A DNA stretch of 64,000 bases from Sphingobium sp. Its GTDB lineage: Bacteria; Pseudomonadota; Alphaproteobacteria; Sphingomonadales; Sphingomonadaceae. Location: assembly GCA_035196065.1 (NCBI GenBank), contig CP136575.1:215001-279000 (forward strand), written 5' to 3'. A model generated the notes under the pieces. That model saw only the letters and a list, made by a program, of their open reading frames with translations, was not told where the DNA came from and did no database searches. The first letter of the stretch is position 1. Every line of letters begins with the position of its first letter. Both the position numbers and the translations under genes were made by a program. Shown here piece by piece: positions 23,880 to 30,644 of this stretch.

Positions 23880-25366
23880 CTGGGCAGCCATATGATCTTG
23901 CCGTCATTGGCGGCGGCGTGAATGGCTGCGGCATTGCACGCGATGCGGCCGGCCGAGGCGCAAAAGTGATCCTGTTTGAGCGCGGCGATCTTGCCAGTGG
24001 CACGTCATCGGGGTCGACCAAGCTCATCCATGGCGGGCTGCGCTATCTTGAACATTATGAATTCGGGCTGGTGCGCGAAAGCCTGATCGAGCGCGAGAAA
24101 CTCTGGGCGATCGCGCCGCATATCATCTGGCCGATGCGTTTCGTGCTACCCTATCGCACCGGATTGCGCCCGCGCTGGATGCTGCGCGCCGGCCTTTTCC
24201 TTTATGATCATATTGGCGGGCGCAAGCGGCTGCCTGCAACGCGGACGATCGATCTTCGAAAGGACGCATCAGGCAAGGCGCTGAAAGCCGGTTTCTCGAC
24301 CGCTTTCGAATATTCCGATTGCTGGGTCGATGATGCACGGTTGGTCATCCTCAACGCGCGTGATGCCGCCGATCATGGTGCTGACATCCGCACACGGACC
24401 GAGGTGAAGCGGCTCACCCGCACCGATGGGCTTTGGCGGATCGAGCTTGGCGACGGGGAAATCGTCATTGCCAAGGCGATTGCCAATGCTGCCGGGCCAG
24501 CCGTACTCAACCTGCTCGACCGGGTGCAGGCGCGCCAGCATAACCCTGACGAGAAAATCCGGCTCGTGCGCGGATCACATATCGTCGTGCGTCAGCGCTT
24601 TGACAGCCCGCAGGCCTATTTCTTCCAGAACCCCGACGGCCGCATCTTCTTTGCGATTCCTTATGAGGATGATTTCACGCTGATCGGAACGACGGACGCA
24701 GATCATCAGCCTGGCGACCCGATTGAAGCCAGCGCCGAGGAAATCGCCTATCTGTGCGCCGGGGCAAGCGAATATCTGCGCGAACCAGTGACGCCTGCCG
24801 ACGTTGTGTGGAGCTATGCTGGCGTGCGCCCGCTTGTCGACGACGGGTCGGGCAAACCCGAAACGGCATCGCGCGGCTATCGCTTCGATGTCGACACCGA
24901 TGCGAACGGAAATGCGCCATTGCTGTCGATATTCGGAGGCAAGATCACCACCTATCGCCATCTTGCAGAAGGTGCGATCGCCGAATTGGCGCGATGGTTG
25001 CCGCAATTCAAATCGGGCAGCTGGACTGCAAAAGCGCCGCTTCCCGGTGGCGGCTTTGCCATTGACGGCGCGCCCGCGCTGCGCGCCGAACTGGCGGCGG
25101 AATATCCCTTCCTCGACGCCGCAACGGTCGACAGGCTGGTGCGCAGCTATGGCACCAGTGCGCGCGAATGGCTGGGCAATGCCCGGTCTGCAGCCGATCT
25201 TGGCCAAGCATTTGGCCATGGCTTGACCGAAGCAGAAGTGCGCTATCTGATTGACCGCGAATGGGCCCAGTCTGCCGATGACATTTTGTGGCGGCGCAGC
25301 AAATTGGGGCTGCGCTTCGATGGCGCGCAACGCACCACGCTCGAGGATTTTTGCGCGCGCGTTTAA
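23876..25366 (+). CDS. glpD: Glycerol-3-phosphate dehydrogenase
   Basis: This is a 496-residue FAD-dependent sn-glycerol-3-phosphate dehydrogenase of the respiratory, membrane-associated type, oxidising G3P to dihydroxyacetone phosphate and passing electrons to quinone. The dinucleotide motif is GGGVNGCGIARDAAGRG near the N-terminus, followed by DLASGTSSGSTKLIHGGLRYLE. YSDCWVDDARL and IFGGKITTYRHLAE are further signatures. No glpK or glpF is in the window. Its start is inside the YeiH stop. Confidence 0.94.
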   Translation: MTGQPYDLAVIGGGVNGCGIARDAAGRGAKVILFERGDLASGTSSGSTKLIHGGLRYLEHYEFGLVRESLIEREKLWAIAPHIIWPMRFVLPYRTGLRPRWMLRAGLFLYDHIGGRKRLPATRTIDLRKDASGKALKAGFSTAFEYSDCWVDDARLVILNARDAADHGADIRTRTEVKRLTRTDGLWRIELGDGEIVIAKAIANAAGPAVLNLLDRVQARQHNPDEKIRLVRGSHIVVRQRFDSPQAYFFQNPDGRIFFAIPYEDDFTLIGTTDADHQPGDPIEASAEEIAYLCAGASEYLREPVTPADVVWSYAGVRPLVDDGSGKPETASRGYRFDVDTDANGNAPLLSIFGGKITTYRHLAEGAIAELARWLPQFKSGSWTAKAPLPGGGFAIDGAPALRAELAAEYPFLDAATVDRLVRSYGTSAREWLGNARSAADLGQAFGHGLTEAEVRYLIDREWAQSADDILWRRSKLGLRFDGAQRTTLEDFCARV

Positions 25367-25415
25367 GGGTTTAACTGCGGCCCTGTTGTTGTAACCTTGG
25401 CCCTCATGATTCGCG

Positions 25416-27002
25416 ATGGGGGGCCATTTCATGCCGAAGGCCAGCGGCAATCAGGTTCCAGCAGCAGACGGGCGCTTTGCCGCCTTCATCAGCTATAGCC
25501 ATGCCAATGCCGAAAGCGCTGCGTTGTTGCAGCGGCGGCTGGAGCGCTATCGCCTGCCTCCGCAGGTTGCGGCCGAAAAGGGCGAACGGAACCGGGCTAT
25601 CGGACGCATCTTCCGCGATCGTGAAGATCTGGCCGCTGCACCCAGCCTGACCGACGCCATCAAAGAGGCGCTGGCAGAATCAGATGCGCTTATCGTCATC
25701 TGTTCGCCAGCGGCCAAGGCATCGCGCTGGGTGGCAGAGGAAATCGCGCTGTTCCGGCAGATCAACCCGGGGCGGCCCGTGCTCGCGGCCTTGGTCGATG
25801 GTGAGCCCGCCGACGCCCTGCCCGAAGCGCTGACTGACGGCGGCCTTGAACCGCTGGCGGCAGATCTGCGCAAGGCGGGTGATGGCTGGTCGCTCGGCTT
25901 TCTGAAAATCGTCGCCGGAATTGCAGGCGTGCAGCTCGATTCGCTGGTGCAGCGGGACGCCCAGCGCCGCGTCCGCCGCGTGACATGGATCACGCTGGCG
26001 GCAGTAAGCGCGATGTTAGTGATGGCGGTGATGACCAGCTTTGCGATCCAAGCCCGTAACGAAGCCGCCCGGCAACGGGCAAGCGCCGAGGGGCTTGTCG
26101 AATATATGCTGACCGACCTGCGAACCAAGCTGAAAGGCGTCAACCGCCTTGACGTGATGGAAGGCGTAAACGAGCGTGCGATGGCGCATTATCGCCAGCA
26201 GGGCGATCTTGCGTCGCTGCCCGCCGACAGTCTGGAACAGCGCGCGCGCATCCTTCTCGCAATGGGCGAAGACGATCAGAGCCGCAACAAGAACGACATT
26301 GCGCTTGCCAAGTTCGAAGAAGCGCATCGCGCGACCGCAGCATTGCTGGCCCGCGAACCCGACAACAGCCAACGGATCTTTGCGCACGCACAGAGCGAAT
26401 ATTGGGTGGGCTATGCTGCATTTCGCGCAAACCAGCCCGACAAAACCATGCGGCACTTCCTGGAGTATAAACGGCTCGCTGACCGATTGGTCGCGCTCGA
26501 ACCCGAAAAGGCCGAATGGCATCGCGAAGTTGGCTATGCCAATGGCAATTTGTGCACCCAATATCTGACCGAGCCGCTTGATGCGGATGCCGCCGTGCGT
26601 TTCTGCAAACTGGCACTCGGCAATGTGCGCCGTTTCATCGCTGCACGCCCACAGGACCCTTCGGGCAGGATTGATCTCGCCAACCGCCATGCCTGGCTAT
26701 CAGACGCATTGTTCGAAGCAGGGGCAATCGACGAAGCTTGGTCACATCGGCAGCAGCAGCTTGCTTTGCTTGATGCTGCAGTGAAAGCAGATCCACGCAA
26801 CGCCGATTATCGCCTGCATTGGGCGCAGTTCTATATTGCCGTCGCGAAATTCCCGCAGACCCGCAACAATGTGGAGGCCAGCCGCGAGGCTTATCGCAAG
26901 GCGCGAAGCTATCTTGATGCGCTGCTTGCCGGCGATCCGGAGAATGAGGTTATTCGTAGCTACAGGAGCAAGCTTGACAACGCCTACCGATTTCTGACGT
27001 GA
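25416..27002 (+). CDS. TIR domain protein with membrane segment and TPR-like C-terminus
   Basis: This is a 528-residue TIR-TM-TPR protein. The TIR domain spans about 19-130: RFAAFISYSHAN opens it, DREDL gives a BB-loop-like segment, and SRWVAEEI carries E109 at the position of the catalytic Glu of NAD-cleaving TIR enzymes (WVxxEI, as in SARM1). One membrane helix follows (about 190-211), then 300 helical residues in TPR-like repeats, presumably on the other side of the membrane from the TIR. ATG 25431 is an alternative start. It heads a four-gene unit; 17 bases separate it from the next gene. NADase activity and signalling are inferred, not shown. Confidence 0.82.
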   Translation: MGGHFMPKASGNQVPAADGRFAAFISYSHANAESAALLQRRLERYRLPPQVAAEKGERNRAIGRIFRDREDLAAAPSLTDAIKEALAESDALIVICSPAAKASRWVAEEIALFRQINPGRPVLAALVDGEPADALPEALTDGGLEPLAADLRKAGDGWSLGFLKIVAGIAGVQLDSLVQRDAQRRVRRVTWITLAAVSAMLVMAVMTSFAIQARNEAARQRASAEGLVEYMLTDLRTKLKGVNRLDVMEGVNERAMAHYRQQGDLASLPADSLEQRARILLAMGEDDQSRNKNDIALAKFEEAHRATAALLAREPDNSQRIFAHAQSEYWVGYAAFRANQPDKTMRHFLEYKRLADRLVALEPEKAEWHREVGYANGNLCTQYLTEPLDADAAVRFCKLALGNVRRFIAARPQDPSGRIDLANRHAWLSDALFEAGAIDEAWSHRQQQLALLDAAVKADPRNADYRLHWAQFYIAVAKFPQTRNNVEASREAYRKARSYLDALLAGDPENEVIRSYRSKLDNAYRFLT

Positions 27003-27019
27003 CCAGCAGGAGCAGAAAG

Positions 27020-27529
27020 ATGATGAAACAGCCGACCAAAGACGGATTTGCGCAAAAGAAGATAGGGTCGAAAAAGCCCGATGGCTTCTCTGACAATCCA
27101 ATCAGGGCACAATTGACGCTTGCGCTGGAACAACGCGGGCGGGCGATCGATCTCATCATGGTGGCGGGCAAAGCCTGCGACGAAGCCGCGTCGAACATTC
27201 TGCGTCAGACCAAGGAAGGTGAATTTTATCTGGCGATCGAAAAAGACACGATCATCAGCTTCGCACTTTCGGACAAGATCGACTGGCGCTGGAACCAGAA
27301 ACAGGCCGCGTTGACGACCAAGGATGACCGCGAAACCCTATATGCGGTTGATGGCGGCTTCGACGATCCGCTGACCGGCGAGATCCAGTTTTACTGCAAG
27401 GCGCGCGGCGGCGATGTGCCACAGACCGACGGTTTGAGCATTGCGGTCGACCTGCAACAAAGCGGTGGAAGCTATCTTCCGATCACCATCGATCCCGATA
27501 TCCGCAACCCGCCACCGGGCGGCGGCTGA
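27020..27529 (+). CDS. Unrecognised protein in the TIR operon
   Basis: This is a 169-residue soluble protein I do not recognise. The N-terminus is basic and lysine-rich; the middle (QLTLALEQRGRAIDLIM) is helical; the second half is beta-rich with EGEFYLAIEKDTII and RETLYAVDGGF, and it ends in a Gly/Pro tail. No signal peptide or membrane segment. A good ribosome site (AGGAGCAGAAAG) precedes the ATG at 27020. It lies 17 bases after the TIR gene and 17 bases before the SLOG-like gene, so all are in one transcript. A regulator or effector of the TIR module is possible. Confidence 0.75.
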   Translation: MMKQPTKDGFAQKKIGSKKPDGFSDNPIRAQLTLALEQRGRAIDLIMVAGKACDEAASNILRQTKEGEFYLAIEKDTIISFALSDKIDWRWNQKQAALTTKDDRETLYAVDGGFDDPLTGEIQFYCKARGGDVPQTDGLSIAVDLQQSGGSYLPITIDPDIRNPPPGGG

Positions 27530-27546
27530 AAGGAAGGACGCTGGAT

Positions 27547-28929
27547 TTGGCGCAGGAGCACAGCCTGCAAACGATCCTGTCAATCGCACGCACAGGCGCG
27601 ACATCGCGCGCCTGGGCGGCCTTCATCGCGGCCGGCTATGACCAGTCCGGAGATATGCGCGCACTGACGCTCAAGGGCCGGCTGTTGAAGGATCGCGCGC
27701 GTCTGGCGGCGGGCGCCGAACGCCAGGCACTGTTTGCCCAATCCGCCGAAGCCTATGAAATAGCGGCCGCGATCCACAATGACAGCTATCCACTGATCAA
27801 CGCAGCGGCGATGGCATTATTTGCCGGCGACAAAGCCCGCACACAGGCAATAGCCAGCCGGGTGCTCGAACTGATAGACGGCGGCGTCGATAGGGGTGAG
27901 ACACCCTATTGGGGCGAGGCAACGCGCGCCGAGGCACTGCTGCTGCTTGATCGCCGTGAAGATGCCGAAGCCAGCTTTGCGCGGGCGATCCAACTGGCAC
28001 CCGAAGCGTGGGAGGATCATGCCGCAACGCTGCGGCAGTTCGCGCTCCTGACCACACAGCATGGCGGCGATGTGCGCTGGCTCGATCGTTTCCGTCCGCC
28101 GCCCGTGCTACATTTCAGCGGAATGATGGGCATTGCCAGCGATGATCACGACAGCAATTCCGCCATCTTCAATGCCATTGAAGCGATTGCTCCCGGCTTT
28201 GGCGTTGGCGCGCTCGCTGCCGGATCGGACATTATTGCCGCCGAAGCGCTGGCTGCACGGGGGGCCGAACTGCATGTCGTTCTGCCATCCGACCCTGCCG
28301 ATTTCCGCCGGTCCTCGGTCGAACCATTCGGCCAGGACTGGGCAACGCGTTTCGATGCCTTGTTATCCGGCGCGCATAATCTGGTGATCTGCGGCACTGG
28401 CGACGTAACGAGCGAAGCCAGCGTGGCGCTTGCCGACTATCATGCAATGGGCCTTGCAGCAGAGCTGGCCGGACAACTTGAAACACGGGCCGTCGCACTG
28501 CGGGTCGAGCCCGTTAACCGGGGCGAGCGGCAGGACCCATGGAGCCTGTCCGGACGGGATATACAGCGCGTGGCAATCGCCGCCTCGGCTCCCGCTCGCG
28601 CACTACCGTTACCACAAGACCAGCTGCGTTTCGACATTGTAGTCGATGACGGCACCGTGCGGACGGTCACGCAGCTTGCAGATGCAGTGGCAGCGCTTGC
28701 CGATGGGCGCGATGCGATCACAGCCATCGACTGCCGGCTTGACGGCGCACCGCGTGTGGCAGCCTTCCTCGCGCACGGGCAGCCGGGAATGGTTGCCGCG
28801 AGCCGTGATGCCGCACTCGCCCTTCTGGCGTGCGGCGCGGTGCAACGGATCGAACCCATTGGTGAAATGGCGAGTGCAGTTGGCCCGGTTGAGCTGTGCC
28901 TCGTCGTGCTCAACCGGGCGCAGAGCTGA
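27547..28929 (+). CDS. TPR protein with SLOG-like nucleotide-binding region
   Basis: This is a 460-residue protein, read from a TTG at 27547 with AAAGGAAGG upstream. Residues 1-180 are helical repeats of the TRAFs-binding/TPR type. Residues about 185-320 look like a SLOG (LOG/DprA-like) Rossmann domain: GALAAGSDIIAAEALAARGA (221-240) and ELHVVLPSDPADFRRSSV (241-258). The last hundred residues have a pattern (PGMVAASRDAALALL, then IEPIGEM) like the end of class III nucleotide cyclases but without visible catalytic Asp/Lys residues. Known relatives often carry an active cyclase there. Placement between the TIR gene and a Crp-type gene suggests nucleotide signalling; this is inference. Confidence 0.72.
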   Translation: MAQEHSLQTILSIARTGATSRAWAAFIAAGYDQSGDMRALTLKGRLLKDRARLAAGAERQALFAQSAEAYEIAAAIHNDSYPLINAAAMALFAGDKARTQAIASRVLELIDGGVDRGETPYWGEATRAEALLLLDRREDAEASFARAIQLAPEAWEDHAATLRQFALLTTQHGGDVRWLDRFRPPPVLHFSGMMGIASDDHDSNSAIFNAIEAIAPGFGVGALAAGSDIIAAEALAARGAELHVVLPSDPADFRRSSVEPFGQDWATRFDALLSGAHNLVICGTGDVTSEASVALADYHAMGLAAELAGQLETRAVALRVEPVNRGERQDPWSLSGRDIQRVAIAASAPARALPLPQDQLRFDIVVDDGTVRTVTQLADAVAALADGRDAITAIDCRLDGAPRVAAFLAHGQPGMVAASRDAALALLACGAVQRIEPIGEMASAVGPVELCLVVLNRAQS

Positions 28930-28935
28930 TCGCCG

Positions 28936-29598
28936 ATGGCTGATACGCTGACCCATGATGACAGGGCCGCCATTCGCGCCTGTTTCAATTGCAGCGCGCA
29001 AGCCGCCGACCGGCTGACTGCGGAAATGGCCGTGCGCAGCGCTCCGCATCGCGGCAAGGTGGCACTTGCCGGCGATGAAGCGACCCAGTTGCTGTTCGTC
29101 GTCGAAGGTGCGGTCTGCGCCGAACTGTTCGGAATTGATGGCCAGCAGGCTCAGCTTGCACGGCACGGGCCTGGCGAAGTGTTCGGCGCCTATCCTGCCG
29201 AAACCGTTTATCGCGCGAACATGACGGCCGTGGGGCAAACGCGGCTGTTATTCATTCCGACGCGCAAATTGCGGGTGCTTGCCGCCGAAGATGGCGAAAT
29301 CGCCAATGGCATCGCCGAACTGCTCGCCCGCCAGCTTGACCTGGTGCTTGACCGCATGGCGGCGCGCATTGGGTTGAGCGCAACCGGACGTTTCTATCGC
29401 GCGCTGTTGATGCTGGCAGATGATGAAGGGACGATCCGTCCGGCCCCTGTCGTCGCCGCGATGGCGTTAAGCGTTCACACCACCCGTGAGACCGGATCAC
29501 GCGCATTGGCGGCCCTTTTGCGCCGAGGCATTGCCGAGCGTCTGCCCGACGGGCTTCGTATCGTATCGCGCCGGATGCTCGAGGATTTGGTGGTCTAG
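28936..29598 (+). CDS. Crp/Fnr family transcriptional regulator
   Basis: This is a 220-residue regulator with an N-terminal cyclic-nucleotide-binding-like beta barrel (about 40-125) and a C-terminal winged helix (VVAAMALSVHTTRETGSRALAALLRRG). The phosphate-binding cassette is degenerate: GEVFGAYPAETVYRANM keeps the Gly and Arg positions but lacks the Glu that contacts cAMP ribose in CRP. There are no Fnr-type cluster cysteines. The ligand may therefore differ or be absent. It ends the TIR/SLOG unit, starting seven bases after that gene, and its stop overlaps the convergent ribA stop by four bases. Confidence 0.85.
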   Translation: MADTLTHDDRAAIRACFNCSAQAADRLTAEMAVRSAPHRGKVALAGDEATQLLFVVEGAVCAELFGIDGQQAQLARHGPGEVFGAYPAETVYRANMTAVGQTRLLFIPTRKLRVLAAEDGEIANGIAELLARQLDLVLDRMAARIGLSATGRFYRALLMLADDEGTIRPAPVVAAMALSVHTTRETGSRALAALLRRGIAERLPDGLRIVSRRMLEDLVV

Positions 29599-30644
29599 AG
29601 GCTGTGTCCGGTACGGTCGCGCTTGGTTGCCAGATAATGGGCGTTGTGGGGGTTTGCAGCGATTTTCAAAGGAAGCCGCTCGACAACCGCGATGCCCTCC
29701 GCCTCCAGCCCGGCAACCTTTTCCGGATTGTTCGTCAAAAGCCGGACATTTTCGATCGCCAATAGGCGCAGCATCTGTGCGGCGACCGAAAAATCGCGCG
29801 CGTCGATGGCAAAACCCAGCCGGATATTTGCGTCCACGGTGTCGAAACCCTGATCCTGCAACGCATAGGCGCGCAATTTGTTGACGAGGCCAATGCCGCG
29901 ACCTTCCTGTCGCAGGTACAGCAGCACGCCCCATTGGGCGTCGGCAATCTGATGCAGCGCTTCATGAAGTTGCGGGCCGCAATCGCATTTCAGGCTGCCC
30001 AGAACATCGCCCGTGAGGCATTCGCTATGCAGGCGCACCACGGGGGGCGATCCATCGCGATTACCGACAACCAGCGCGACATGATCCGCCGCATCGGCGA
30101 CAGAGCGGTAGGCAACAAGTTCGGCATTTTCGGCGGCAGCAACCGGCAGCTTCGCACGCGCCGCAATCCGCAAGCCATTCGCATCCTGAAACGCCGCAAT
30201 ATCTGCTGCGGACACATCCACCTCGGCTTGCGCGTCGACAATCAGAAAAGCGGGAAGAAGCCCTGCTTCGCGCGCAAGCTCCATTGCTGCGAGCGCGGCC
30301 TGCGGCTGCTCAAGCGGTTGGGCGGCAAAGGGGCCCTTATAGGGGTAGCGTAGATCGAGAGAAGGATCGGCAATCGCCAACGCAAGCGTCGCGTCAAGAT
30401 CAGAGGGCGGCGCGATACGAACGGGCAACTGCACATCAGCCGCGGAAAACTGGTTTGCCAGTTTCAGCGTCGCTGCCCGTGCCGATGATAAAAGCAGGCC
30501 AGCCACTGCGTCGCCATCGCCGATTGCGCCGGTCTCGATCGCCACCAGCGTCAGCGCGCCGCGTACATCGGCAAAGCGCACCGGCCAGCCGCGCCGCAGC
30601 GCGTCTATGGCCTTGGCCGCACGTTTGGCGGCCGCATCACTCAA
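29595..30644 (-). CDS. ribA: GTP cyclohydrolase II with degenerate N-terminal domain
   Basis: This enzyme opens GTP to a pyrimidine in the first committed step of riboflavin synthesis. The C-terminal half is intact: HSECLTGDVLGSLKCDCGPQL has the three zinc cysteines, YLRQEGRGIGLVNKLRAYALQD and LLTNNPEKV complete the site. The first ~170 residues look like a RibB (DHBP synthase) domain that lost its acidic active site (RRGWPVRFADV where DDEDRE-type residues would stand). I start it at TTG 30644, which overlaps the xth stop (TTGA); an ATG at 30701 would extend 20 codons into xth. Confidence 0.9.
   Translation of the reverse strand: MSDAAAKRAAKAIDALRRGWPVRFADVRGALTLVAIETGAIGDGDAVAGLLLSSARAATLKLANQFSAADVQLPVRIAPPSDLDATLALAIADPSLDLRYPYKGPFAAQPLEQPQAALAAMELAREAGLLPAFLIVDAQAEVDVSAADIAAFQDANGLRIAARAKLPVAAAENAELVAYRSVADAADHVALVVGNRDGSPPVVRLHSECLTGDVLGSLKCDCGPQLHEALHQIADAQWGVLLYLRQEGRGIGLVNKLRAYALQDQGFDTVDANIRLGFAIDARDFSVAAQMLRLLAIENVRLLTNNPEKVAGLEAEGIAVVERLPLKIAANPHNAHYLATKRDRTGHSL

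Follow-up and report, generated by a model that had tools for sequence, protein, structure and literature searches.

The window analysed in this work is a stretch of 64,000 nucleotides from Sphingobium sp. (Sphingomonadaceae; contig CP136575.1, positions 215,001 to 279,000), part of a 3.02 Mb chromosome, and the system in question is a group of four genes at 25416..29598 of the window; all coordinates below are those of the window and all features lie on its plus strand. Gene 1 (25416..27002, with an alternative ATG start at 25431) encodes a TIR-transmembrane-TPR-like protein of 528 amino acids (AA), gene 2 (27020..27529) a pNTSase1-family protein of 169 AA, gene 3 (27547..28929, TTG start) a protein of 460 AA with TPR-S, SLOG-like and decayed cyclase parts, and gene 4 (28936..29598) a dedicated Crp-type regulator of 220 AA. 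The start of gene 2 is placed at the ATG at 27020; an in-frame GTG lies upstream, at 26999, and that start would overlap gene 1. An earlier note on this DNA had described four plus-strand genes separated by gaps of 17, 17 and 6 nucleotides, a layout that the list of open reading frames (ORFs) bears out, and had suggested that a TIR product is passed on to transcription; it did not recognise the families to which genes 2 and 3 belong, nor the decayed cyclase or the site inside gene 1. Our two central observations are that a CRP-like palindrome followed by a TA step is held inside the TIR gene by synonymous codons, and that the Crp-type protein is a near-obligate partner of gene 3. We propose, with a probability that we put at roughly 0.6, that the locus encodes a TIR/TPR-S signalling system whose output to transcription runs through a dedicated Crp-type activator, which would fire a promoter hidden within the TIR gene.

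Relatives were collected through gene 3, which has matches in 74 of 298 family genomes at E 1e-10. The 44 genomes with a gene 3 of at least 172 bits are called here the close clade, a bound that was set after the scores had been seen (the next value is 143). Surroundings were taken for 60 of the 75 gene 3 places, together with the loci of a separate search for gene 3 relatives; the close-clade genome G185 was not fetched, and two loci were left out of the counts, L003 (98% identical to the gene 3 of the window) and L006 (the same locus as L053). By simple distance rules all four genes stand side by side in 31 of 48 close-clade loci. The unit recurs in the Sphingomonadaceae, and its presence in dozens of genomes makes the arrangement more than a chance one. 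The common direction of the four genes, correctly described for the window, does not extend to most relatives: of the 31 full loci, 28 have crp in convergent orientation and three have it co-directional (the window, L004 and L005).

The TIR domain of gene 1 occupies residues 24–152 (25485..25871; Pfam TIR_2, E 6.6e-12) and also matches ThsB_TIR (E 8e-9); the best PADLOC match of the unit, SAVED_TIR (2.6e-6), falls on the same part of the protein. The putative catalytic glutamate E109 (codon at 25740-25742) is present in 44/44 aligned TIR proteins, in which F24, S26, Y27, H29, F66, D68, S103 and W105 are likewise invariant. The putative active-site Glu pointed out in the earlier note is supported by this invariance, and so is the membrane part of gene 1, for which a hydropathy peak at residues 193–211 (25992..26048) marks a presumed transmembrane segment (2.06 in the window protein, 1.67 to 3.21 over the 44 aligned proteins). 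The TPR part announced for this protein is less secure, with weak matches of which solely Fis1_TPR_C exceeds its cut-off (26.4 vs 25.3 bits). Searches with NCBIfam gave no match above cut-off for the proteins of the unit, and Rfam at gathering score gave no family in 24800-30200.

When palindromes were counted in the regions upstream of the genes, GTGA-N6-TCAC ranked first: it stands before crp in 11 of 41 cases (expected 0.1) and before the TIR gene in 6 of 44 (expected 0.13). A wider scan then found a copy inside most TIR genes. In the window this copy is CGTGACATGGATCACG, at 25979..25994, codons 188–193 of gene 1; the palindrome is in frame at the same codons in 39/44 TIR genes and is missing in L042, L077, L079, L080 and L083. 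A TA step lies 23 bases past the palindrome core in 38 of these 39 genes (26017..26018 in the window), brought by NTA codons at residue 201 that are otherwise rare (background 8–11%). The codon choice is as constant as the positions: Val189 is encoded by GTG in 39/39 (background 36%), and residue 192 by GTC in 25/25 genes with Val (41%) and by ATC in 16/16 with Ile (64%). A scan of codon choice over gene 1, gene 3 and crp, start codons aside and with Ser left out, as no single step converts one of its two codon boxes into the other, gave these three positions as the strongest (log10 -33.8, -17.0 and -11.5, ahead of -7.4); when Ser is counted, three of its positions in gene 1 score -11.4, -10.1 and -8.0. 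Among 27 representatives below 60% identity the pattern is complete at residues 189 and 192 and present in 26/27 at residue 201; at other positions, the same amino acid is encoded by the same codon in 42% of comparisons. The palindrome-TA element is held by synonymous codons. In the window the palindrome with its TA occurs once, at 25979-26018 (expected 0.02); with up to three mismatches the palindrome occurs 30 times against 29.6 expected, which is the level of chance.

Class II CRP-dependent promoters carry GTGA-N6-TCAC about 42 bp upstream of the transcription start. Read in this way, the TA would belong to a -10 element, transcription would start at about 26029 and the centre of the palindrome would lie at about -42.5. 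Downstream of this presumed promoter, an internal translation start at Met231 was considered, for which no ribosome-binding site was clearly indicated by a codon-level scan. The codon bias at residues 189–201 might instead serve the making of the protein, for example through a rare-codon pause during membrane insertion, as these positions encode the start of the membrane segment and NTA codons are rare in these genes. We regard this as highly improbable: a pause leaves unexplained a palindrome made of fixed, common codons (GTG, then GTC or ATC), the same palindrome with its TA is found upstream of some crp genes and away from the locus, and no palindrome is present in seven outgroup TIR genes, at loci that lack the Crp.

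The regulator to which such a site could answer is gene 4. Its Crp-like nature, already seen by the earlier note, is supported by a cNMP_binding match (43.3 bits against a cut-off of 27.5, E 3.8e-11) and by a marginal HTH_Crp_2 match (26.6 bits against 27). In the ortholog alignment, residues 182–189 (T-T-R-E-T-G-S-R; 29479..29502) form the presumed recognition helix, in which T182, R184, E185, T186 and S188 are invariant and R189 nearly so among 33 Crp orthologs; by analogy, R184, E185 and R189 correspond to the three residues with which E. coli CRP reads GTGA. Binding of this protein to the palindrome-TA site is suggested by this analogy and by co-occurrence. The Crp profile (A9) was built from 33 of 41 orthologs, and the genome searches scored part of the first-look candidates. 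At E 1e-40 a Crp ortholog is present in 43 of the 298 family genomes, and all 43 fall within the 44 close-clade genomes (Fisher p 2.6e-51, uncorrected for relatedness). A looser search leaves a gap between the weakest member, at 170 bits, and the strongest other protein, at 103 bits. In six genomes (G005, G050, G185, G192, G228 and G265) the Crp ortholog lies about 50 kb or more from the system or on another contig, and these six proteins were outside the search profile. The only close-clade genome without a Crp ortholog, G040 (locus L083), is one that keeps both metal-binding Asp of the gene 3 cyclase; it has a weaker Crp-family gene beside the TIR gene (2.3e-22) and was not among the 114 genomes of the looser search. 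Over 37 loci, the Spearman correlation of locus distances is 0.64 for gene 3 and Crp, 0.53 for TIR and gene 3 and 0.48 for TIR and Crp. The Crp-type protein is therefore a near-obligate partner of the close-clade gene 3, including where the two genes are parted.

Exact sites are not confined to TIR genes. Elsewhere in the close-clade loci there are 34; a TA follows 11 of them at +36 and 14 at +37 (both strands counted), when other offsets mostly have 0–5, with 9 at +17. Related sites precede some crp genes, and five loci with no TIR gene found ahead of gene 3 (L064, L077, L079, L080 and L082) have a site 407–567 nucleotides upstream of gene 3. The close clade has 82 sites in 667,204 bases, the outgroup loci 4 in 244,674. 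At the scale of genomes, 30 genomes with the system contain the strict pattern CGTGAYNNNNRTCACG 108 times (0.98 per Mb; 18 for a reversed-pattern control) and 30 genomes without it 31 times (0.34 per Mb; control 13), a difference per Mb with p 1.2e-6; this excess is partly made of the system's own sites, and 15 of the 108 are in a single genome (G057). There is variation on both sides, as G021, which has no system, has five strict sites, and G068 and G220 have none, their TIR genes carrying a looser form (L066 and L062). The off-locus sites examined were 21 of those listed in system genomes (G000, the genome of the window, has further, unlisted ones) and all 16 listed in genomes without the system: TA at +36/+37 follows 10 of the 21 and 1 of the 16 (p 0.010). 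In 8 of these 10 cases the candidate ORF, which was picked by hand, starts 13–46 nucleotides past the predicted transcription start; in the other two the distance is 0 and 150. Of the ten encoded proteins, one is a response regulator and nine match no Pfam family at E 0.01. A possible regulon is delineated by the off-locus sites that share this promoter layout (L219, L223, L225, L227, L228, L230, L231, L236 and L238), and six of the ten candidate targets begin, by eye, with secretion or lipoprotein signals.

The layout of these sites also bears on the sign of the regulation. Intragenic sites can act as road-blocks, and the position of the palindrome within a gene fits a Crp that represses, holding transcription of a toxic TIR unit in check until a signal lifts the block. 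No -10 element is required for a road-block, yet the TA is kept at a fixed, activator-like distance in 38/39 intragenic sites and is enriched at the same distance outside TIR genes, and most off-locus TA sites have a candidate ORF just past the predicted start, so that we consider repression improbable. Activation by Crp from a class II-like position is the simplest reading, and the one that we prefer.

Gene 3, the partner of this regulator, is where the signal would have to be read. It matches PF20308 (TPR-S, 'Tetratricopeptide Repeats-Sensor') with 31.7 bits against a cut-off of 27.6 (E 2.3e-7), and 46 of its 47 relatives do so as well (E at most 0.01); L076 was left out of the alignment of these relatives (A1). 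The Pfam family MAP3K_TRAF_bd, a domain of animal ASK kinases, is matched by 31 of the 47, and a second, weak TPR-S match, below the family cut-off, is present in the genome of the window at G000:C1:2921960-2922247. The best AlphaFold2 model of gene 3 (mean confidence score, pLDDT, of 83; five models from 57 to 83; 8 sequences) shows TPR-like helices up to residue 182, alternating strands and helices at residues 187–344, then a less certain third domain. The middle segment (28105..28578) is predicted to be Rossmann-like (SLOG-like), and it carries a DprA-like motif (GALAAGSD...ELHVVLP). Comparison of the segment by hhalign gave 0.5% with DprA and 1.1% with LOG, and has no power, as the DprA–LOG control itself reached just 0.2%; Foldseek of the model returned mainly TPR-containing O-GlcNAc transferases, with TM-scores to the query of 0.16–0.27 among the 50 matches listed.

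The third domain (residues 352–460, 28600..28926) is, by profile and alignment, a decayed class III nucleotidyl cyclase. The profile of gene 3 relatives (A1) matches the cyclase Ma1120 of the PDB (E 0.0015), and hhalign of the close-clade C-terminal domain against outgroup cyclases gives a probability of 98.7% (E 2.6e-16). The window protein has a gap in place of the first metal Asp, an Asp aligned at the second and an Ala instead of the Arg. Only 2 of 46 close-clade members keep both metal Asp, against 19/19 in the outgroup alignment, which includes L083; Pfam Guanylate_cyc matches 18 of these 19, the exception being L083. The ancestor of gene 3 probably carried a working class III cyclase that decayed in the close clade. 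The outgroup TPR-S-cyclase loci (L084–L101) often have another TIR gene nearby and no close Crp ortholog: a relative of gene 1 is found within the fetched flanks of 7 of the 18, and a TIR gene adjoins gene 3 in L101, by eye. Given these neighbours, a TIR protein together with a TPR-S protein whose cyclase keeps both metal Asp may be the ancestral form.

Gene 2 is not a protein of no known family, as had first been thought, since it matches PF20301 (pNTSase1, 'predicted novel nucleotide synthetase') with 37.8 bits against a cut-off of 25 (E 2.3e-9); a nucleotide synthetase activity is predicted by the name of the family. It is very divergent, with 10–31% identity to the window protein in the alignment of copies, for which ORFs beginning inside the TIR gene were trimmed to a later start, and the Pfam model matches 24 of 40 copies (E up to 1) and misses 16. 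The most constant part is a C-terminal tail, IDPDIRNPPP in the window (27488..27517), which could be a docking tail on a variable protein; an IDPDxxNPPP-like ending is found in most of the 40 copies, a GGIHPP-like one in five. The protein has nothing below E 0.89 in the PDB. Broad searches found gene 2 in 2 of 289 class genomes (Pfam model) and in 2 of 299 phylum genomes (our own alignment), numbers from which rarity cannot be concluded, because few family genomes were in the samples and the Pfam model misses 16 of 40 copies.

Whether the output of the system is transcription or the death of the cell can be approached from the proteins and from their distribution. In Thoeris, according to the portions of PMC7272460 and PMC11204291 consulted, TIR enzymes act with SLOG sensors to abort infection, and the four genes could work in the same manner, the TIR product setting off gene 3, or gene 2, to stall the cell or kill it while Crp merely tunes expression. 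The patchy presence of the system, with a gene 3 match in 6 of 18 genomes of the genus, one of them partial, and the divergence of gene 2 fit a conflict system. However, no convincing SIR2, nuclease, protease or pore family was found in the four proteins with Pfam, NCBIfam and PADLOC at E up to 1, the best effector-type match being PADLOC SIR2 on gene 2 (E 0.027), and we hold suicide as the main output to be rather unlikely.

By eye, the window has a yeiH-like gene and glpD on one side of the unit and ribA and xth on the other, names that come from reading and not from a family search, and in two members of the genus (L055 and L217) genes 1 and 3 adjoin the same yeiH-glpD pair. In the genomes of L055 and L217, crp is parted from the other genes and lies beside ribA (L211 and L204), and ribA follows crp in the window; 11 other ribA neighbourhoods have no crp at E 1e-15, two of them from system genomes whose crp adjoins gene 3 (L066 and L218). 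The nearest named relatives of gene 3 are in metagenome-assembled genomes of Sphingomonadales and Sphingorhabdus. The enrichment in defence islands that the earlier note had envisaged is not seen: the flanks look like housekeeping DNA by eye, without a scan of the flanking genes. These housekeeping surroundings, the absence of any match to gene 3 in the phage collection, its single match in the plasmid collection, on a replicon of 1.8 Mb, and the secreted or lipoprotein-like aspect of 6 of the 10 off-locus candidate targets would all suit a non-immune module for envelope or redox stress that happens to use a TIR enzyme. On the other side, most discussion of TPR-S and TIR domains concerns conflict systems, and a stress module accounts poorly for the patchy distribution and the very divergent gene 2; we see such a module, too, as rather unlikely.

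The model that we favour can be described as follows. A membrane-tethered TIR enzyme would make an NAD-derived signal that gene 3, through its TPR-S/SLOG-like parts, would sense together with the fast-evolving gene 2; the cyclase has decayed in the close clade, where a dedicated Crp-type regulator accompanies gene 3. The Crp would activate promoters with GTGA-N6-TCAC about 42 bp upstream of the start, its targets being its own gene in some relatives, the promoter inside the TIR gene and a few unlinked genes. From the intragenic promoter, transcription would cover the TPR part of gene 1 together with genes 2 and 3 and, in the window, crp, with no new NADase being made. As Crp is tied to the system genome by genome and likely sites lie in and around the unit, an output to transcription, as the earlier note had suggested, is well motivated; the signal chain of that suggestion is of a more conjectural kind, and the same is true of activation by Crp, of the TIR product as the signal, of its relay from gene 3 to Crp and of any antiviral role. 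The full circuit, in which an NAD-derived signal read by the pseudo-cyclase of gene 3 would switch on Crp, and the hidden promoter would then yield sensor, gene 2 and regulator without more NADase, so that a small, mostly uncharacterised gene set is induced instead of the cell being killed, is tentative, and we give it somewhat less than an even chance.

Several observations weigh against the wiring to transcription that we propose. At the level of the site, the palindrome alone is found once in the window where 0.25 is expected, which is not remarkable; the last base of the -10-like hexamer is mostly A and not T, so that the element is weak beyond its TA, and no sigma-70 match was found in 25300-29900. 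L042 has a Crp without an intragenic site, and at four loci whose crp is unlinked the stretch fetched around crp holds no exact site. At the level of the locus, 17 of the 48 close-clade loci fail a rule, with no nearby crp, a TIR gene elsewhere or too far, or no gene 2 found. At the level of the proteins, the residues that we take to bind the cNMP (cyclic nucleoside monophosphate) phosphate in E. coli CRP are absent from the sensor domain of gene 4, and the fold prediction of gene 2 has a pLDDT of 46. The SLOG-like region that had been read in gene 3 fits by predicted topology and motif, but the alignment of the segment gave no SLOG family match against Pfam and PDB. Finally, L083 keeps both metal Asp but has no Guanylate_cyc match at E 0.01, which leaves the intactness of its cyclase uncertain.

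In bacteria, TIR signalling has been known chiefly as a trigger of suicide. If the model is true, a TIR system that has a transcription factor as its near-obligate partner would be a bacterial parallel to the TIR pathways that end in gene expression, and the decay of the cyclase in the lineage that gained a Crp partner would show how such circuits may be rewired. The conserved site points to a regulon, and hence to a way of learning what the system responds to, and its maintenance inside a gene by synonymous codons offers a direct and cheap test of the model.

The components are known as families, and their wiring with a dedicated Crp and an intragenic site was not found in the literature searched. 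No publication was found that links TIR and TPR-S with a Crp-type regulator; the gene set is not claimed as unreported. A paper by Burroughs and Aravind (J Bacteriol, 2020) reportedly defined the TPR-S and pNTSase1 families and proposed TPR-S as a sensor scaffold for NAD-derived signals. Genes 2 and 3 resemble these families, which they match above cut-off (PF20301 and PF20308), and what sets the present system apart is the decayed cyclase on gene 3, the dedicated Crp-type regulator and the intragenic site. The palindrome resembles that of class II CRP-dependent promoters by its place about 42 bp upstream of the presumed start; unlike theirs, it lies inside a coding sequence, and its putative regulator lacks, by analogy, the cNMP-contact residues. 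In the part of Kaur et al. (2020; PMC7159879) consulted, genes for CRP-like, cNMP-recognising transcription factors are linked to some peptide-processing conflict systems and TIR and SLOG domains make signals in other conflict systems; that part mentions neither TPR-S nor pNTS, and it describes no such pairing of TIR with Crp and no intragenic site. The consulted portion of PMC8195603 treats NAD-derived signals made by TIR proteins, and transcriptional responses in other systems. Thoeris, where TIR enzymes work with SLOG sensors (PMC7272460 and PMC11204291, in the portions consulted), is similar in that a TIR enzyme (ThsB there, a protein with invariant E109 here) stands beside a possible nucleotide sensor (the SIR2-SLOG protein ThsA there). 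It differs in that, apart from the PADLOC SIR2 match on gene 2, genes 1–4 have no SIR2 or macro-domain match, and in that the TIR protein is here membrane-tethered, with a transcription factor in place of a known killing effector. As in Pycsar, which consists of a cyclase and a cyclic-nucleotide receptor (PMC11224242, in the portion consulted), a cyclase-derived domain and a cyclic-nucleotide-receptor fold are combined in one system, except that here the cyclase is decayed and the receptor fold, in Crp, carries a DNA-binding domain.

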